Shown: piece by piece, positions 3,902 to 64,000 of the stretch
Layout: every line of letters begins with the position of its first letter
Position numbering within the stretch: position 1 is the stretch's first letter
DNA from: Nitrospira sp.
GTDB taxonomy: Bacteria > Nitrospirota > Nitrospiria > Nitrospirales > Nitrospiraceae
Direction of reading: 5' to 3'
Assembly: GCA_005116835.1 (NCBI GenBank)
Contig: SWDM01000004.1
Span: 152,749-216,748, forward strand
Length of the DNA stretch: 64,000 nucleotides
The notes under the pieces: model-generated
Databases searched by the model: none
What the model saw: only the letters and a program-made list of their open reading frames with translations
Told to the model about the DNA's origin: nothing
Made by a program: the position numbers and the translations under genes

Positions 3902-4519
3902 ATGAACCATGGCACACTACGTATCATCACCGTGAGGCCGCAGATGCGCTGCTACCGACGTCCCTACCTTTTGCCACTGTTACTCGCTCTAGGTCTTTCC
4001 TCAACAATCTGCACAACCACCTTTGCAGGAGAAGTGGCTCTCTTGAGCATAGGCCCTCGCGTTGGATTCGGTGAAAAAGCTCCCCTCATGGGAAAAGAAC
4101 AACTGTATTACTTTCACCTACACGACATCGCAGCGCTCATCAAACTCCCCTGGTCCTGGCCGATCGGTGAAAGCACATGGAGTCTGGACACAAGGCTGAT
4201 CGCGAGCGCGGGGCTACTGACAGGGGCCAATGAGAGCAGTCTGATGATAACGACCGTGCCGGTTCTCGCGCTGAGCGGCTGGAAAGAACTGGTCACCTTC
4301 GACACAGGAATGGGAGCAGGATTCTTTACCAATCATGAGTTCGGCATGCAAGACTTCGGGGGTCCGGTTCAAATAATTGCAACCATGGGAGCTCGCGTCA
4401 ATCCGATTGCTCACGCCTATGCCGGCGTTCGCGTTCAACACTTCTCAGATGCGGGCCTGTACGGACCATCTAGTCTCGGTGTGGACATGTACATCGCAGA
4501 GCTTGGATATAAATTTTAG
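3902..4519 (+). CDS. PagL-like lipid A 3-O-deacylase family outer-membrane protein
   Basis: A 205-residue exported beta-barrel protein. Residues 21-43 form a signal peptide ending near TTFAG, and the C-terminus ends in aromatic F, as outer-membrane barrels do. The C-terminal block VQHFSDAGLYGP aligns with the catalytic block of PagL (HYSNAGL), giving His180 and Ser182. PagL's third catalytic residue is Glu; here the matching GIE position reads GVD (Asp195) with one extra residue before it. It may deacylate lipid A or be a structural relative. I prefer ATG 3902 because GGAG lies 7 nt upstream; TTG 3872 and ATG 3878 are in frame. It stands alone between two spacers. Confidence 0.75.
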   Translation: MNHGTLRIITVRPQMRCYRRPYLLPLLLALGLSSTICTTTFAGEVALLSIGPRVGFGEKAPLMGKEQLYYFHLHDIAALIKLPWSWPIGESTWSLDTRLIASAGLLTGANESSLMITTVPVLALSGWKELVTFDTGMGAGFFTNHEFGMQDFGGPVQIIATMGARVNPIAHAYAGVRVQHFSDAGLYGPSSLGVDMYIAELGYKF

Positions 4520-7998: not shown

Positions 7999-8035
7999 GG
8001 ATCAGAGGGACAGCGATGGGAGGTGCGCACAACAA

Positions 8036-8155
8036 CGAACTCGGTTTCTTTGGTTCATTTGGTTTCTTTGGTTTGTTTTGTTCTTTTGGTTTGTCCGGTA
8101 CGAGAACCAGACAAACCAAATAAACCAGATAAACGAGATAGACCAGAGAAACGAG
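8036..8155. repeat. Family C word-palindrome (TTTGGT / ACCAAA) between pgsA and plsY
   Basis: The left half repeats words such as TTTGGTTCATTTGGTTTCTT; the right half repeats ACAAACCAAATAAACCAG and continues to the pgsA stop. The two halves are imperfect reverse complements of about 50 nt with a short GC loop near 8095-8105. Copies with the same words occur at 54605-54690 and 63913-64000. Confidence 0.75.
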
Positions 8156-10741: not shown

Positions 10742-10905
10742 TCAAACTGACTTTCCAACAAGGCCGCAGGCGAATCGAAACCAGAGGCGTATCTTTCTCA
10801 CCCGCCCGCCACCGAGCTGCCAAGACAGCTCATCCCCCAAGTGGGCTACGTTGAGGATCTTGTCGAGCCGAGAACAAAGTTGGGAGCCGGTTTCAGCATC
10901 TCACC
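10742..10905. repeat. Family B element with internal insertion, at the pyrG stop
   Basis: CCAACAAGGCCGCAGGCGA at about 10755 and TACGTTGAGGAT with CGAGAACAAAGTTGGGAGCC toward 10889 match the two halves of the 49481-49605 element. The central GTACCC..GGGTAC hairpin is replaced by about 60 nt containing its own inverted repeat (GAGCTGCC..AAGACAGCTC). The copy ends immediately at the pyrG stop codon. Confidence 0.65.
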
Positions 10906-17175: not shown

Positions 17176-18564
17176 ATGGCTCGACCACCTTCGACAAAAC
17201 AATTGCGCGACTGGGATCGACAGTACCTCTGGCATCCCTTTACCCAAATGCAGGAATGGGAACAGGAGGAGCCGCTCATTATCGAGAAGGGAAAAGGCAC
17301 CTACCTGATCGATACGGAAGGGAAAAAGTATCTCGATGGCACCTCCTCCATCTGGGTCAATCTGCATGGCCATCGCCATCCGACCCTCGACCGTGCGATC
17401 AAGAAACAGCTGGATAAGATTGCCCATTCCTCGCTATTCGGAATTTCCAATCCACCGGCGGTTGAACTTGCGCGCGCCTTGATCAGGATCGTACCCAAAG
17501 GCCTGACACGGGTATTTTACTCCGACGATGGATCGACCGCGGTCGAGATCGCGCTCAAAATGGCGGTGCAGTACTGGCAGCTACGACGCCCCGATGCCGG
17601 TCCCAAGAATACCTTTCTCCATCTGAAGCTGGCCTACCACGGCGATACCGTCGGCGCCGTCAGCGTGGGCAACATCGACCTCTTCCATGGGCGATTCAAA
17701 TCACTGCTCTTCCCCACAGCCGAGGCAGATCCTCCCTATTGCTATCGATGCCCGTTGAGCCTGACATTTCCTTCATGTCAGATGGCCTGCCTCGACCCAA
17801 TTGAGCAAATCCTCAAAGACCGGCACCGCGAACTGGCCGGCTTCATCATCGAGCCGCTCGTGCAGGCAGCAGCAGGCATGTTGACCTCCCCTCCTGGCTA
17901 TCTAAAGCGGATTCGTGAGCTCTGCACCAAATACAATGTCCTCTTGATTGCCGATGAAGTCGCTACGGGATTCGGCCGCACCGGCAAAATGTTCGCTTGC
18001 CAGCATGAGGGGGTCACGCCGGACTTGATGGCGATCAGCAAGGGCTTAACCGGCGGCTACATGCCGCTGGCCGCGACGCTCACCACGGACGAAATCTACC
18101 GGGCCTTTCTCGGCACATACGCAGATTTCAAGACCTTCTTCCACGGACATAGCTACACCGGCAATCCGCTCGGCTGCGCGGTCGCGCTGGCCAACATCGA
18201 CATCTTCCAGAAAGAAAAGACGCTCTCCAAACTGCAACCGAAGATCAAGACGCTCGCGCAATTGTTATTGCCTCTCAAACAACTACCCCATGTCGGCGAG
18301 ATCAGGCAGCGGGGATTCATCGTGGCGATCGAGTTGGTGGAGGATAGGCAGACGAAGAAACCCTATCAGCTCGAAGAGCGGGTCGGCCATCGAGTAGCCA
18401 TGGAGGCGCGCAGCAGAGGGCTCTTACTGCGCCCCATCGGCAACGTGATGGTCCTCATGCCACCCCTCAGCACGTCACTTCCGGAACTCAGGCGGATGGT
18501 CGAGATTCTGAGGGAGGCCATCGAGGCCGTTACACAACTGCCTGAGTCTGACCCAGGGTCGTAA
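17176..18564 (+). CDS. bioA: Adenosylmethionine-8-amino-7-oxononanoate aminotransferase
   Basis: A 462-residue PLP enzyme of biotin synthesis, transferring an amino group from S-adenosylmethionine to KAPA. The PLP lysine is Lys289 in AISKGLTGGY, with LIADEVATGFGRTG binding the cofactor ring. A cysteine cluster, C189-x2-C192-x8-C201-x3-C205, matches the insert I recall in Aquifex/Bacillus-type BioA. No other bio genes are adjacent. The region before ATG lacks a clear ribosome binding site. Family A repeats follow the stop codon. Confidence 0.93.
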   Translation: MARPPSTKQLRDWDRQYLWHPFTQMQEWEQEEPLIIEKGKGTYLIDTEGKKYLDGTSSIWVNLHGHRHPTLDRAIKKQLDKIAHSSLFGISNPPAVELARALIRIVPKGLTRVFYSDDGSTAVEIALKMAVQYWQLRRPDAGPKNTFLHLKLAYHGDTVGAVSVGNIDLFHGRFKSLLFPTAEADPPYCYRCPLSLTFPSCQMACLDPIEQILKDRHRELAGFIIEPLVQAAAGMLTSPPGYLKRIRELCTKYNVLLIADEVATGFGRTGKMFACQHEGVTPDLMAISKGLTGGYMPLAATLTTDEIYRAFLGTYADFKTFFHGHSYTGNPLGCAVALANIDIFQKEKTLSKLQPKIKTLAQLLLPLKQLPHVGEIRQRGFIVAIELVEDRQTKKPYQLEERVGHRVAMEARSRGLLLRPIGNVMVLMPPLSTSLPELRRMVEILREAIEAVTQLPESDPGS

Positions 18565-18568
18565 GATA

Positions 18569-18671
18569 GGAGGAGGGAGCGGCCAGGTGCCCTCTTTGCT
18601 CGCAGAACGCGCACGATCAGAATGTGCTCGTTCGATGCGCGCAGTAGAAGGCAACCTTGGCCACTCCCTCC
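18569..18671. repeat. Family A structured repeat, copy 1
   Basis: Left arm (18569-18594, GGAGCGGCCAGGTGCCCTC) and right arm (18647-18671, GGCAACCTTGGCCACTCC) are imperfect reverse complements. Between them lies the family core, with TGCTCGCAGAACGCGCACGA at its start, a GCAC..GTGC inner hairpin, and GATGCGCGCAGT at its end. It begins about 5 nt after the bioA stop. Confidence 0.8.
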
Positions 18672-18697: not shown

Positions 18698-18806
18698 AGA
18701 GGGACAGGTGCGGCTTGATGACTCCCTGTGCTCGCGCAACGCGCGGTCGAAAACTCCCCTCGTTGGACGCGCGCACGATGGAAAAACGCCAGGTCGCCCT
18801 TCCTGA
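18698..18806. repeat. Family A structured repeat, copy 2 (degenerate arms)
   Basis: The core (TGTGCTCGCGCAACGCGCGG, then CTCGTTGGACGCGCGCA) is well kept. The arms, around GAGGGACAGGTGCGGC and GCCAGGTCGCCCTTCC, pair only partly. It is directly downstream of copy 1. The 145 nt that follow, up to the ATPase gene, hold no recognisable feature except GGAG 8 nt before the next start. Confidence 0.65.
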
Positions 18807-25168: not shown

Positions 25169-25326
25169 GGAGGGATGGAGCCTGATGATCTTCTGTGCTC
25201 GCGCAACGCGCGGCCTCAGAAGGATGGGGGAGGAGCGGCCCGGTGCCCTCCTTGCTCGCAGAACGCGCACGATGAAACGGTGCTCGTCCGATGCGCGCAG
25301 TCGAGGGCAGCCTCGGCCACTCCCCC
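25169..25326. repeat. Family A repeats, truncated copy 3 followed by full copy 4
   Basis: Copy 3 (25169-25222) has the left arm GGATGGAGCCTGATGATCTT and the first half of the core, then stops. Copy 4 has arms at 25226-25250 (GGAGCGGCCCGGTGCCCTC) and 25303-25326 (GAGGGCAGCCTCGGCCAC) around the core with a GCAC..GTGC-like inner hairpin (GCACGATGAAACGGTGC). Copy 3 starts directly at the BrnA stop codon. Confidence 0.8.
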
Positions 25327-25417
25327 TAAAGAGATGTATAGCGATCGGGATGGTCGCGCACCGTGAACCACACCGCTACCCCTCACTGAGGCGAGACAAT
25401 GACCGGCCAAGTCGGTC

Positions 25418-25517
25418 TCAACGGTGGTGGCTAATCTGATCGCCCTGCTCGCAGAGGCCGCACGATCAGAATGTGCTCCCTCGATGCGCGCAGTGAACGA
25501 CAATCAGACCACCCTTG
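25418..25517. repeat. Family A repeat, copy 5, upstream of the HEPN-like gene
   Basis: The core CTGCTCGCAGAGGCCGCACG continues through GATGCGCGCAGTGAA. The flanking GGTGGCTAATCTGATC and CAATCAGACCACC pair imperfectly. This element lies in the stretch where the following gene's frame appears to extend upstream, so that extension is spurious. Confidence 0.6.
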
Positions 25518-25540
25518 TGGAAGTGAATGAAGAAGAGAGC

Positions 25541-43557: not shown

Positions 43558-46527
43558 TTACGACTTTGGACTGTCCGACTCCGGTGTCAACTCTTCCACA
43601 GACTGCGCAGTTTCTTGGAGCCGTTCGCTCCCCTCGTCAGCCGGCATGAACTGTTCAACCCTGGTGTTTCCGCTATCGACGACGAACACACTCCCCTTGA
43701 CATCGACGGCAATACCATACGGGAAATTGAATTGCCCTTTCCCGTTCCCGAACCCGCCCCATTGGGTGATGAAATTGCCTTCTTTATCGAACTTCTCGAC
43801 CCGATGGTTGCCGGTATCCGACACATACACATCGCCGGCCCCGTCGACAGTAATGCCCCAGGGAGAGCGCAACTGACCTGCCTCCTGCGCAAGTGGACTG
43901 CTAGCGTGGCCCGGTTCGGCGCTGCCGCCCCATTTGGCCAGCAACTGCGGAAGCACGTTGGTGCTGGTGTCGAACTTCTGAATCCGGTGATTCCCCATGT
44001 CGACAACGTACACAAACCCGTCCGTCTGATCGACGGCCACGCCGCGCGGAAAATAAAACTGGCCGTCGCCGTTTCCGAAGCTGCCCCAGGACATGATGAA
44101 CTCCCCGTTCATATCGAATTTCTGCACGCGGAAGTTCGCGCTATCAACCACATAGACATACCCGCGCACCCGATCGACCGCGATGCCCCAGGGTGAGTTG
44201 AATTGCCCTTCGCCATTTCCACGAGATCCGAACTTCATGAGATAGCCGCCGAGCTTGCCGTCAAATTTCTGGACGCGGTGATTGTTCGTATCGACGACCC
44301 AGACATCGCCCTTACCGTCGCAGGCAATCCCGGTGGGGTTATGGAAGTTCGAATTGGCCGACCCGAAGTTTCCCCAGAGAATGATAAAGTTTCCGGCATT
44401 GTCGAATTTCTGAACTCGATTGTTGCCGTTATCGACCACGAACAACGCCCCCTGCTGATCGACACACAATCCGTAGATCGGCGCCATGAACTCGCCTCCG
44501 TGGAGCAACGATGCGCCGCGGCCCGTGCGGCCCCATTCGGCCACGCAGAGATACCCCGACGTATTGACCAGTATCGTTGAGCCCGCAGGGGTGGAGACGT
44601 TCCCTCCCACATCCTTAAACCAGACGTAGATCGACTTCTGTCCATCTCCCGGCGACAAAATATAGGGAATCGTCGCGCCGAACTTGGTAGCCGGTGTCAC
44701 ATCCACCCATCCCGGCGTCCCCGCCGTGGGCGTCATCGGCGCCTCGGAAATAAAGTAGGCCGCCACTCCGGTATCCACATCGTTGGCTGAGACCGTGACA
44801 ATGACTTCCGGCGTGTTCGTCATGAACGCGCCGTGATTGATCACAGCATAGGGATTTTGCGGCGCGGTAATGTCGATGAGGACCGGCGTCGCCAGGACCT
44901 CATTCGATAATTCACTTTCGGCGCCGGTCTCGAACACGGCAGTTACGGCATAGTGATAGACGGTATCGTTCGAGAGACCGGTATGCACATAGGGATTGGT
45001 CACCCCTTCGATTTTCGTCGCCGTTTGGGTTGTGAGCTTCGGGACGGTATTGAAATAGAGGTTATAGGACTGGGCGCCGGGCACTTCCATCCAACTCAGG
45101 AAGGCCTCAGTATCGCCGGCTTTGACCGCCACGCTGCGGGGCGCAGGAGTCTCGGTCGGCGCCTGGCTGGTCGACGTCTCATCCTTCCCGCGATTGAGTT
45201 CTTCTTCCGTCGGCACATACTTGAGGATGCGGCCATTGCCGCTGTCCACCACATAAACCGCGCCTTCTTTGTCGACTGCGATCCCGTAAGGGTAATTGAG
45301 CTGTCCTTCCGACTTTCCACGGTTTCCCCAGGCACAGAGAAACGTCCCGTTGCCGTCGAACTTTTGGATGCGGTGGTTCCCGGTATCGACCACATAGACG
45401 TTGCCGAGCGCATCGCAGGCAATCCCCCAGGGAGACTTGAATTGGCCTGGACCGGCCCCCTCGCGACCCCACTTGGCAAGGAAACTTCCACGGGCATCGA
45501 ATTTCTGGATCCGATTGTTGCTTTCATCGGCGACAAAGATATTGCCCACAAAATCGACGGCCACGCCGCGGGGGAAAAAGAAAGCGCCGTCAAAGCTCCC
45601 GTCGCGGCCCCACTTGAGCAAGGCCTGCCCGTCGGATGTAAACTTCTGAATCCGCGCGTTGCTCGTGTCGGAAATATAGAGATTCCCTTCTGCGTCCGTC
45701 GCCAGCCCCCAGGGCACATCGAACTTGCCCAGATCGGCTCCGCGCCAGGCAAACCCAAATTTGCCCCAGGCCTGCATGACATTGCCGTTCAGATCGAACT
45801 TCTGGATGCGATTGTTGCCGCTGTCCGCAATGTACAACACGTCATTCGGCCCGACCGCCAATCCCCTCGGATAGTAGAAACTCCCCTCCTGCGAAGAAGG
45901 ATCGCCACCCCACCGCGCGAGAAACTTCCCGGACTTGTCGAGCTTCTGAATCGAATGGTTATCGGTATCGGCAATGTAGATATTGCCTTCCTTATCGAGC
46001 GTGATCCCCGTGGGCGAACTGAACTCCCCGTCGTCCACACCTTCTTGGCCAATAATCATGGCTAATAGGTACGGCGAAGGAATCGCCATGACTTCTTGGG
46101 ACTCAAGACTCTCCCCCTTTTGTGTGACTACCGTCACGACATAGTGGTAGCAGGTTCCGTTGGCCAAATCGTCATGGACAAAGGGACTTTGAACCCCTTC
46201 CACACAGGTGCCTTTTTCTTTTTTTACCCCAATGACGGCTTTGAAATCATCACTGCCGGCAATCGGACGCGTGAGATCGGAGGGCTTGATCATCACACCC
46301 TTGGTGGTCTGGAAGTACAGATTGTAATACATGGCATCGGGAACCGGATCCCACGTAATGGTGGCCTGGCCATTTCCCGATTTCGCGGCCACATTGGCCG
46401 GTGGTGCGGGAAGTTCTTCTTCAGCGGCAATTGAATCGCCGGCACCCCATTCGCCCAGCGTGCCATCGATGGTCAGAGACCTGCGATCACGCCGAAACAT
46501 TTCGTCGAGTAGCCAAGCTTTGATCAT
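43558..46527 (-). CDS. Double NHL-repeat beta-propeller protein with Fn3-like domains
   Basis: A 989-residue protein. A fibronectin-III-like segment (about 40-150) precedes six NHL repeats (about 155-445; each ends like NRIQKFD), a second Fn3-like segment (about 460-550), a CHU_C/beta-sandwich-like stretch (about 555-655) and six more NHL repeats (about 660-960). This gives two six-bladed propellers, probably for binding protein or glycan. The N-terminus ([16 protein letters not shown]) has no signal peptide and no upstream alternative, unusual for a domain set normally exported. It follows guaB, with a 61-nt spacer. Confidence 0.88.
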
Positions 46528-46640
46528 AGAGTGGTGCTTCCCGTGTTACGAACGCCGCCAGAAAATGAGGGATCTTTCAATGACTTAGAATTGGATTGAG
46601 AAGTCTAGCAAAGGGGCGGAAAGAGAGTCAACGGGGGAGC
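46528..46640. other. Upstream spacer of the NHL gene
   Basis: Holds the presumptive promoter region of the minus-strand NHL gene. No conserved promoter hexamers stand out. From 46622 the DNA passes into repeat family A. Confidence 0.3.
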
Positions 46641-46737
46641 GGGAACGGCACCCGCGTGGTCCCGTGCTCCCGGAACGCGCACGATCGGAATGTGCTCGTT
46701 CGACGGGCGCAGTTGGACCACTACGGATGCCATTCCC
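46641..46737. repeat. Family A structured repeat, copy 6
   Basis: Arms GGGAACGGCACCCGCGTGGT at 46641 and ACCACTACGGATGCCATTCC ending at 46737 are reverse complements except for a few C/T exchanges that keep G-U pairing. The core CGTGCTCCCGGAACGCGCAC with inner GCAC..GTGC hairpin lies between. The arms differ in sequence from those of other copies. Confidence 0.85.
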
Positions 46738-46816
46738 AGAGAGAGAGGCAAGCGAGCTTGGAAAGATGATTTAGAGATGTGGCCTCGTCCAATGCGCACA
46801 GTGACGAGGCGTGGAA

Positions 46817-46913
46817 GGGCTGGAGCCTGATGATCTTCTGTGCTCGCGCAACGCGCGGCCTCAGAAGGCCCTCGTTGGACGCGCGCAATGGAAGATCAAT
46901 CAGGCCCCATCCC
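46817..46913. repeat. Family A structured repeat, copy 7
   Basis: Arms GGCTGGAGCCTGATGATCTT and AAGATCAATCAGGCCCCATC pair almost fully. The core is TGTGCTCGCGCAACGCGCGG, with inner hairpin GGCCTCAGAAGGCC and CTCGTTGGACGCGCGCA. A tail, GAGCGAACGAGCGAGCTTGG, follows and is shared with other copies. Confidence 0.88.
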
Positions 46914-46948
46914 TGAGGAGCGAACGAGCGAGCTTGGAGGGAGCATGC

Positions 46949-47044
46949 GAGGGCGGACTAGATGGTCTCCTGTGCTCGTGCAACGCGCGGTCTCAGAAGA
47001 CCCTCGTTGGACACGCGCAGTGGGAAACCATCTAGCCCGCCCTC
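46949..47044. repeat. Family A structured repeat, copy 8
   Basis: Arms GAGGGCGGACTAGATGGTCT and AAACCATCTAGCCCGCCCTC pair over 22 nt with only G-U exceptions. The core keeps TGTGCTCGTGCAACGCGCGG, but the inner hairpin is now GGTCTCAGAAGACC instead of GGCCTCAGAAGGCC in copy 7: a compensated base change. This is the clearest covariation in the window. Confidence 0.9.
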
Positions 47045-47160
47045 AAGGGAAGAGATAAACGAGCGGTGCTTCGCTTGATGCGCGCAGTGAAGAACAATCT
47101 GCCTACTCCTTCTGGGCAAGTCGAGGAATCAGAAGGCACTAGTTGAACGCGTGCGACTCA
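47045..47160. repeat. Degenerate family A fragments
   Basis: Pieces such as AAACGAGCGGTGCTTCGCTT, GATGCGCGCAGTGAA and GAACGCGTGCGAC are recognisable parts of the core and tail without paired arms. From 47160 to the PEP-CTERM gene terminator nothing further is seen. Confidence 0.55.
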
Positions 47161-47301
47161 AGAAACGACTCAGACGATGGTGCGATCCAAAGTCAAGTAA
47201 CGACCCCGCTCTTTCTCCTTTGTGCGTCGCAACGAAGCTCGGCTGGTTCAAGGAGCGACGGTAGGTCACAGATCGAGGTCTGTCACGTCTTGCCATACTC
47301 A

Positions 47302-49480: not shown

Positions 49481-49605
49481 CAGGCTGCTCAAAAAGGCCA
49501 TCCAACAAGGCCGCAGGCGAGTCATAACCGGAGGAGTACCCTCAGGGGTACGTTGAGGATTATGACGAACCGAGAACGAAGTTAGGGGCCTTTTTCAGCA
49601 GCCTG
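49481..49605. repeat. Family B structured repeat, best copy, at the scpB stop
   Basis: The outer arms CAGGCTGCTCAAAAAGGCC (49481-49499) and GGCCTTTTTCAGCAGCCTG (49587-49605) pair with one mismatch. Inner arms GAGTCATAACC and GGATTATGAC pair partly, and the centre is the hairpin GTACCC-TCAG-GGGTAC (49536-49551). The stem ends directly at the scpB stop codon. Confidence 0.85.
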
Positions 49606-53249: not shown

Positions 53250-53376
53250 CAGGAAGCCCAAAATGACCCCCAGCGTCGTTCTCAGTCGCTCGTCTCCCTG
53301 CAACGTACCCCAAGGGTACGCTTCGGTCGCCGAACTCCCTGCGGCCTTGCCGGGATGTCATTTTGAGCATCCTGCT
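53248..53376. repeat. Family B structured repeat, inverted copy, at the Lon-like stop
   Basis: The outer arms AGCAGGAAGCCCAAAATGAC (53248-53267) and GTCATTTTGAGCATCCTGCT (53357-53376) pair with two mismatches. The central hairpin is GTACCCCAAGGGTAC. Read on the minus strand it aligns with the 49481 copy (CAAGGCCGCAGG, GAGAACGACGCTGG), but the arm bases AAAAAGGCC there are CAAAATGAC here, with the complementary changes on the other side. Confidence 0.85.
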
Positions 53377-54521: not shown

Positions 54522-54604
54522 CGAATTTCTCCTCTCTCATCCGTTGGATGTTAACGCCGCCTCCAATTAGCATAACCTTAAGGATCTTGCAACTCACACT
54601 TCAA

Positions 54605-54690
54605 GTAGGATGGTTCATTTGGTTTGTATGGTTTATTTCGTTTTCTGGCCAGTTTTGTTCAACCAAATACACTAAACAAACCAAATAACA
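54605..54690. repeat. Family C word-palindrome
   Basis: GGTTCATTTGGTTTGTATGG on the left and AACAAACCAAATAACAG on the right are imperfect reverse complements with words shared with the copies at 8036 and 63913. It lies in the divergent spacer between the histone-like and cupredoxin genes; from 54691 to 54872 no gene is seen. Confidence 0.7.
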
Positions 54691-58160: not shown

Positions 58161-58275
58161 GGACCCTCTCCTCATTTGGCAGAAGAACCGATTAATACCT
58201 GGCCTCATAATAATGTGATAGATAGAAAATATATGCTTCTCGTATCAGAAACACAAATGCACAGAGGGGAAGGAA

Positions 58276-58372
58276 GGGATGGAGCCTGATGATCTTCTGT
58301 GCTCGTGCAACGCGCGGTCTCGGAAGACCCTCGTTGGACACGCGCAGTAGAAGATCAATCAGGCCCCATCCC
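58276..58372. repeat. Family A structured repeat, copy 10
   Basis: Arms GGGATGGAGCCTGATGATCT and AGATCAATCAGGCCCCATCC match copy 7 closely. The core inner hairpin is GGTCTCGGAAGACC, differing from copy 7 at paired positions. The shared tail GAGAACGAGTAAGTTTGGAG follows. Confidence 0.88.
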
Positions 58373-58404
58373 TGAGGAGAGAACGAGTAAGTTTGGAGGG
58401 ATCA

Positions 58405-58696
58405 TATAGATGAATGGTTCTCGCTCGATGCGCGCAGTGAAAGCCGGACTGGCTCCTCCCTTCTTGGGGCGGGGAGAAGAAGTCTTGAAGGAGAGCGGGC
58501 CTCGTTGGACGCGCGCAATGGGAGATCAATCAGCCCCCATCCCTGAAGAGGGAACGAGCGAGCTTGGGGGGACCATTTTAGGTGCCTGGTCACCCTACTT
58601 AGAGCGTAACGGGGAGAGCACGGAAAGGAATCGTTCGCGTGGAAGACAAGATGTACGATTGCAGAACCCGCCTCTGAATAGGCTAGCGGGCTGCAA
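58405..58696. repeat. Disrupted family A copies; otherwise empty spacer
   Basis: Half cores are seen at about 58418-58440 (CTCGATGCGCGCAGTGAAAG) and 58500-58520 (CTCGTTGGACGCGCGCAATG), the latter followed by an arm GGAGATCAATCAGCCCCCAT and the tail GAACGAGCGAGCTTGG. Their left partners are lost or rearranged. From 58600 to the HEPN-like gene nothing further is recognised. Confidence 0.6.
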
Positions 58697-63871: not shown

Positions 63872-63912
63872 AGGGTGGATCGTATCATAGCCTCGCCTCC
63901 GCCTCAACGACC

Positions 63913-64000
63913 ACAACTGGTTGATCTGGTTTATTTGGTCTATTTGGTTTGTTTGGTTGAACTAAGACTAACCAGATGAACAAAACAAACCAAATGAACC
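63913..64000. repeat. Family C word-palindrome upstream of recG (continues off window)
   Basis: TGGTTGATCTGGTTTATTTG and GTTTGTTTGGTTGA on the left pair with TAACCAGATGAACAAAACAA and ACCAAATGAACC on the right. The third copy of the TTTGGT word family in the window. Confidence 0.75.

Follow-up and report, generated by a model that had tools for sequence, protein, structure and literature searches.

The integron attC site is conserved in structure rather than in sequence and forms an imperfect hairpin with protruding bases on one side. Rickettsia palindromic elements (RPE) are structured repeats of ~100–150 nt that have spread within one bacterial group, and we know of no mover for them; the GC clusters of yeast mitochondria are known to insert into one another. 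Together with the repetitive hairpin elements of sponges, these GC clusters have been described as short mobile hairpins (PMC4478555, PMC2800124), RPE have a CGTC end (PMC3733652), and the REP/BIME sequences are GTAG/CGTC-tagged palindromes that work with RAYT (PMC2817692, PMC3733652), REP palindromes also being used by IS elements as sites of insertion (PMC1525189).

The hairpin family found in the window (the whole 64,000-nt stretch analysed, positions 152,749–216,748 of contig SWDM01000004.1 from a Nitrospira genome) can be compared with each of these systems. Like REP/BIME, it is high-copy, intergenic and palindromic and forms mosaic clusters, and some REP also carry complementary changes; unlike REP/BIME, its units are ~100 nt long with arms of ~23 bp, without a tag or a flanking transposase, the arms vary around a fixed centre, the clusters are co-oriented, and the insert in a hairpin tip is another family member. 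RPE are largely located inside genes and end in CGTC, whereas this family is mostly intergenic and its members are nested in one another. The GC clusters and the sponge hairpins are likewise short hairpins with signs of mobility and no known mover, but they are organellar and shorter and have no fixed core with mismatches flanked by paired variable arms. Finally, in attC sites the outer boxes are conserved and the tip varies, in contrast to the variable outer arms, conserved middle and lack of gene cassettes seen here. The family is characterized by a conserved irregular core, pairing-constrained arms, co-oriented nesting of members in hairpin tips, and one locus whose hairpin is kept between genera; new here are the ortholog at that locus, situated between ligase genes and rewritten by compensatory change, and a ~134-nt unit nested in unrelated hairpin tips. 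Nitrospira rank among the major nitrifiers, and their genomes carry these repeats as a conserved component that lacks an Rfam entry. The explanation that we favor, with a probability of roughly 0.55, is a Nitrospiraceae-specific hairpin that is recognized by its structure, was formerly or is still mobile, and has been fixed in part by selection.

The family unit is an imperfect hairpin of ~100 nt, with a nearly constant centre and arms mutating in matched pairs. In the orientation of the initial annotation, the 5′ side consists of a ~23-nt arm, TGC, a mismatched T, four pairs (some variable), the five pairs of CAACG/GAACG and the tip stem-loop, after which the 3′ side carries the partner CGTTG/CGTTC, an unpaired GA, four pairs, a mismatched C, GCA and the second arm. 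The core length of ~50 nt given in that annotation is correct, and the core includes a fixed mismatch, a 2-nt bulge and a second mismatch; these irregularities are invariant in a 28-copy alignment (read on the reverse strand, the invariant columns are TGCG, the bulge TC of two bases, and GAG with GCGCG) and are found again in other genera, and the alignments of this analysis contained no core-repaired copy. The window contains eight copies and several half copies, all in the same orientation (Table 1). The six full copies first listed (18569, 25226, 46641, 46817, 46949 and 58276) are all present within a few bases of those positions, and two further copies, at 18704–18805 and 25423–25519, and the half copies of Table 1 have been added. 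Five of the window copies fold with z scores of −5.2 to −8.5 relative to dinucleotide shuffles, none of which folds equally well. The hairpin at 18572–18671 starts 8 nt past the stop of the ORF at 17176–18564, and the unit at 46633–46763 recurs in relatives with an identical 3′ end.

Table 1. Hairpin copies, half copies and associated segments in the window.
Feature	Position	Strand	Evidence
Intact hairpin, arm type 2 (GGAGCGGCCAGGTGCCC)	18572..18671	+	CM 91.6 bits, fold z −8.4
Copy, core intact but arms worn	18704..18805	+	CM 66.7 bits, fold z −2.0
5′ half of arm-type-1 hairpin, loop (CTCAGAAG) broken by next unit	25171..25223	+	98% identical to 46816–46868; junction
Hairpin, arm type 2, within tip of broken hairpin on left	25228..25327	+	CM 73.7 bits
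Diverged hairpin copy	25423..25519	+	CM 53.6 bits
Outermost 5′ arm remnant (AACGGGG), same site kept in relatives	46630..46637	+	orthologous sites L177–L195
Hairpin, arm type 4-like (GGGAACGGCACCCGCGTGGTCC)	46640..46739	+	CM 86.1 bits, fold z −5.2
Tail (..AGCGAGCTTGGAAAGATGAT) of unit holding hairpin 46640..46739	46740..46763	+	query 634–764; relatives' alignments end at query 763–764
3′ half of interrupted hairpin (TCGTCCAATGCGCACAGTGACGAGG)	46780..46812	+	sequence
Recurrent 134-nt unit: hairpin 46816–46915 (arm type 1) and tail GAGGAGCGAACGAGCGAGCTTGGAGGGAGCAT	46813..46946	+	dozens of copies with ends at query 814 and 947, many genus genomes
Hairpin, arm type 3 (GAGGGCGGACTAGATGGTCTCC)	46948..47047	+	CM 96.3 bits, fold z −8.5
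3′ half of interrupted hairpin (TCGCTTGATGCGCGCAGTGAAGAACAATCTGCCTACTCC)	47068..47110	+	sequence comparison
Outermost 3′ arm remnant (AATCAGAAGGCACTAGTTGAACGCGTGCGACTCAAG), matches intact outer arms in relatives	47121..47170	+	orthologous sites
Hairpin, arm type 1, type-3-like core; tail to ~58406	58275..58374	+	CM 111.7 bits, fold z −8.1
3′ half of interrupted hairpin	58418..58460	+	
3′ half of arm-type-1 hairpin	58501..58548	+	exact 3′ core

The sharp-ended ~134-nt unit of the window (46813–46946) recurs in many genomes of the genus and is found in the tips of unrelated family hairpins. A systematic search across the loci returned 40 candidate nests in which outer and inner arms both pair; ~35 of these, judged by eye, are convincing and comprise several combinations of inner and outer arms, and a few (e.g., at L278, L143 and L373) are clearly chance. 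The commonest inner unit has the junctions GGAAC^ and ^CGTTCG regardless of the outer arms. On a single contig (L246), nearly the same outer hairpin is present both empty, as GGAAC-GCGCGGCCTGGGAAGGCCCT-CGTTCG, and filled, as GGAAC-[~148 nt]-CGTTCG, a paralogous pair in which ~148 nt stand in place of a 20-nt tip. In the genome from which the window comes, 23 of the 35 type-1 units adjoin half a core of the host hairpin, as against 3.6% for random positions in the same loci. At one orthologous intergenic site, ~18 relatives carry hairpins that differ from one another and are single, double or, apparently, triple nested, and the window cluster at 46630–47170 is a worn version of this site (L177–L195). 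Close neighbours are co-oriented 27:0, the unit ends vary between subfamilies, and the search for target-site duplications yielded short loop repeats, read by eye, at L188 and L179 only. The identical junctions in unrelated hosts could also stem, not from insertion, but from gene conversion through the 12–15 nt that the cores share. Of the initial proposal that the element is moved or bound by a structure-recognizing enzyme, signs of movement are seen in the nesting and the empty/filled pair; no candidate enzyme or partner was found.

In the mechanism proposed for the mobile hairpin, the ~100-nt unit would act when folded from a single strand, of either DNA or RNA, and its fixed mismatched core would be read by a putative structure-specific partner. 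Copies may arise as a MITE-like non-autonomous mobile unit, with a putative trans-acting host enzyme, or one now lost, recognizing the core and moving or copying the unit; insertion would take place by replacement of the tip in older family hairpins, and many copies may later have been retained by selection for host use of the hairpin. It is a tentative and rather unlikely further step that dedicated Nitrospiraceae machinery reads the mismatched single-stranded core and inserts units by tip swap, the hairpins having been adopted for a genome-wide function at fixed loci. If a structure-reading enzyme does move the units, this would be a novel way for DNA or RNA to move, with hairpin tips as its target.

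The covariance-model search of the genome and its relatives, proposed together with a comparison with Rfam in the initial annotation, was performed with a model built from 37 copies, and gave 130 matches in the 3.94-Mb genome of origin (copy counts, which do not equal independent events), mostly between genes according to crude ORF calls. All of the 31 other genomes of the genus searched carry the family, with 15 to at least 67 matches each, and other genera of Nitrospiraceae have 2 to ~35 each; the rest of the order is mostly without matches, G049 and G055 having one weak match each. A phylum-wide sample of 198 genomes gave matches in 43 of the 46 from the same family and in none of the 152 from outside it. 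The family is near-universal in Nitrospiraceae, with none found outside except the weak single matches in the order, and its early designation as a Nitrospira-type intergenic element is borne out. Among the matches listed in a pattern scan are records named Nitrospira, Nitrospiraceae, Nitrospirae and Nitrospirota, the complete chromosome of Ca. Nitrospira defluvii and one CMX bin labelled Nitrosospira; the collections of viral contigs, phages and plasmids contained no match. Rfam 15, at gathering and permissive thresholds, gave nothing over a gathering score (the best being weak microRNA-like matches and one sRNA, all far under their gathering scores), and the hairpin family is not described in the accessible parts of the open-licence literature that names Nitrospira with REP-like terms.

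At one locus (L119) of the genome of origin, a hairpin (C12:30311–30410) lies between two genes with succinyl-CoA-ligase domains (ATP-grasp_2/Ligase_CoA and CoA_binding/Ligase_CoA). A hairpin is present in this spacer in no fewer than 16 genomes (species) of the genus, and also in G036, which belongs to another genus; the hairpin is worn in G020, a 1.8-Mb genome with few copies, four members of the genus have a different sequence in the spacer, and the portion of it examined in order-level relatives contains no hairpin. Among 13 orthologs, double changes are seen in 16 pairs, and the covariation score is 0.357 as compared with 0.154 ± 0.015 for shuffled controls (reached in 0 of 500 shuffles) and at most 0.10 with the partner slid, one measure, that of further pair types, being not above the shuffles. 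The core occurs in the variants GTCCAACG/CGTTGCGCG, ATCGAACG/CGTTCTGCG, ATCGACCG/CGGTCTGCG and GTCGAGCG/CGCTCCGGG; the hairpin is kept between genera, with arms and core rewritten by compensatory change. This persistence in 16 or more species and also in a second genus, even though the copy is worn in the small genome G020, together with the near-universality in the family and the absence of matches outside it and in phages, viruses and plasmids, would also suit a host-functional structured RNA or DNA site (e.g., a protein-binding or chromosome-organizing hairpin) multiplied by ordinary duplication and gene conversion only. We regard this as possible but doubtful, because a sharp-ended unit in dozens of unrelated places looks like movement, and because tips are replaced in unrelated hosts and hairpins are present or absent at one orthologous site. 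Should the hairpins be host elements, the ligase-locus ortholog with its fully rewritten arms offers a clean natural experiment on which structural part is read.

Covariation among copies was tested on 28 with distinct arms, using shuffled and partner-slid controls. Pairing is found in 83.5% of the cells (66.9% after shuffling), double changes in 29 of the 38 pairs, and the covariation score is 0.466, compared with 0.184 ± 0.013 for shuffled controls and at most 0.167 with the partner slid. Clustering of the arms in the genome of origin gives 37 groups with less than 75% identity to one another, all of which still pair around one mismatched core. The early claims that the arms differ between copies and yet pair, and that the inner stems change in pairs, are thereby confirmed, and the covariation among both paralogs and orthologs supports the view of selection or propagation as a folded nucleic acid. 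Paired arm changes in unrelated copies, and the perfect pairing of some, could be explained without selection or a partner if template switching during replication kept the arms complementary (palindrome correction). Such correction should, however, repair the core mismatches and the bulge as well, which are invariant in the 28 copies and recur in other genera, and it leaves the family restriction and the nesting unexplained, so that we consider it very unlikely.

Membership of the REP type under RAYT (Y1) transposases, one of the classes considered at the outset, might be suggested by the high number (about 130) of palindromic copies, intergenic by crude ORF calls and arranged in mosaic clusters, and by Y1 transposase matches in 33 of 61 genomes. 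Nevertheless, the expected end tags are at about chance level or rare (GTAG in 14/121, GTGG in 12/121 and CGTC in 1/121 copies; chance ~10% each), the loci surrounding the three Y1 genes of the genome of origin contain no family hairpin, G001, G009 and G018 (99% complete, at least 66 copies each) have no Y1 match, and close neighbours are never inverted; this membership was rejected and is highly improbable. A reverse transcriptase was likewise discarded as a universal mover, with no RVT_1 match in the copy-bearing genomes G001, G005, G012, G018, G020 and G023. As in MITEs, there is a repeated unit with defined ends (the 134-nt unit at 46813–46946); conserved terminal inverted repeats shared with an autonomous element are not seen, as the arms differ between copies, and the loci searched contained no gene-bearing autonomous copy, a strict search giving essentially cross-pairing of separate copies.

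Integron attC sites under an integron integrase, also among the initial candidates, are scarcely credible and were rejected: the copies are imperfect structured hairpins, GTTRRRY occurs in 51/121 cores, and a true integrase lies ~0.5–1.6 kb from family hairpins in the genome of origin (cluster ~1.6 kb off) and in G017 (G017:C280, within ~0.6 kb), but the partner box RYYYAAC occurs in 0/121 cores, the variable part lies on the outside and not on the inside, 3/61 genomes, among them that of origin, have an integrase over the cut-off, the integron of the genome of origin has its own, different repeat, and the copies stand alone or nested and do not flank gene cassettes. Another of these three genomes, G044, of the same order, has three integron integrase matches over the cut-off and zero family hairpins. 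The integrase of the genome of origin is bona fide (464 bits; L369:3847–5373, G000:C10:192882–193826), and two 95-nt repeats at L369:5392 and 6261, which are 88% alike, look like the attC sites of this integron. Since each of RAYT, reverse transcriptase and integron integrase is absent from well-covered, copy-rich genomes, none is a universal mover today, although any of them may have been active in the past. With universal movers excluded, the integron repeat distinct and gene conversion possible, a non-autonomous, structure-recognized mobile hairpin partly fixed by host use remains our favored reading.

For 96 of 123 copies of the genome of origin, the reverse complement has the better fold as RNA, a difference in fold energy that comes in part from the core mismatches alone. 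Among the distinct arms of the genus, with relatives removed, A·C exceed G·T mismatches 68:40 in the given orientation, favoring the reverse strand, and the in-register ligase-locus orthologs, read by eye, have ~14 G·T versus 3 A·C on that strand; in other genera the ratio is 49:63, in the opposite direction, and because the signal fails there we claim no functional strand. Judged from crude ORF calls, 32 copies have their better-folding strand antisense to the two neighbouring genes and 18 have it sense to the two, and with orientation relative to genes thus mixed, a transcript-level element of the neighbouring gene was discarded. Orientation relative to replication in the genome of origin is 23 versus 16 by local GC skew, which is not significant (p 0.10), and lagging-strand insertion was dropped for this reason; in N. 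defluvii a bias of ~14 versus 3, read by eye, rests on small counts and an origin assumed at position 1.

Other sequences have also entered family hairpins, namely, a hairpin of ~47–52 nt (GGCACGTCTCGGCGTGCC and relatives) and a GGTTTATTTGG repeat. The former belongs to a second family of ~50 nt (CTCG..GGCACGTCTCGGCGTGCC..GGTGGGCGGGTGAGAA), inserted 3′ of the core at L022:1726, L029:480–626 and L246:2630–2693 and 3985–4048, and several model matches of 146–148 nt in the genome of origin are apparently copies carrying it. A degenerate 9-nt repeat (GGTTTATTT / AACCAAATA) forms three arrays in the window (8034–8146, 54603–54690 and 63910–64000), whose inverted halves are able to form large hairpins, and stands in place of the tip of a family hairpin at L022:2808–3009. 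The window further contains a dispersed repeat, with short blocks 80–82% alike (..CCAACAAGGCCGCAGGCGA.., GGGnTACGTTGAGGAT..) at 10742–10898 and 49489–49600 and an inverted partner at 53338, and, on the minus strand at 43558–46527, a 989-codon ORF with repeated blocks of ~60 nt, which, as an impression only, recall a repeat protein of, e.g., the NHL beta-propeller kind.
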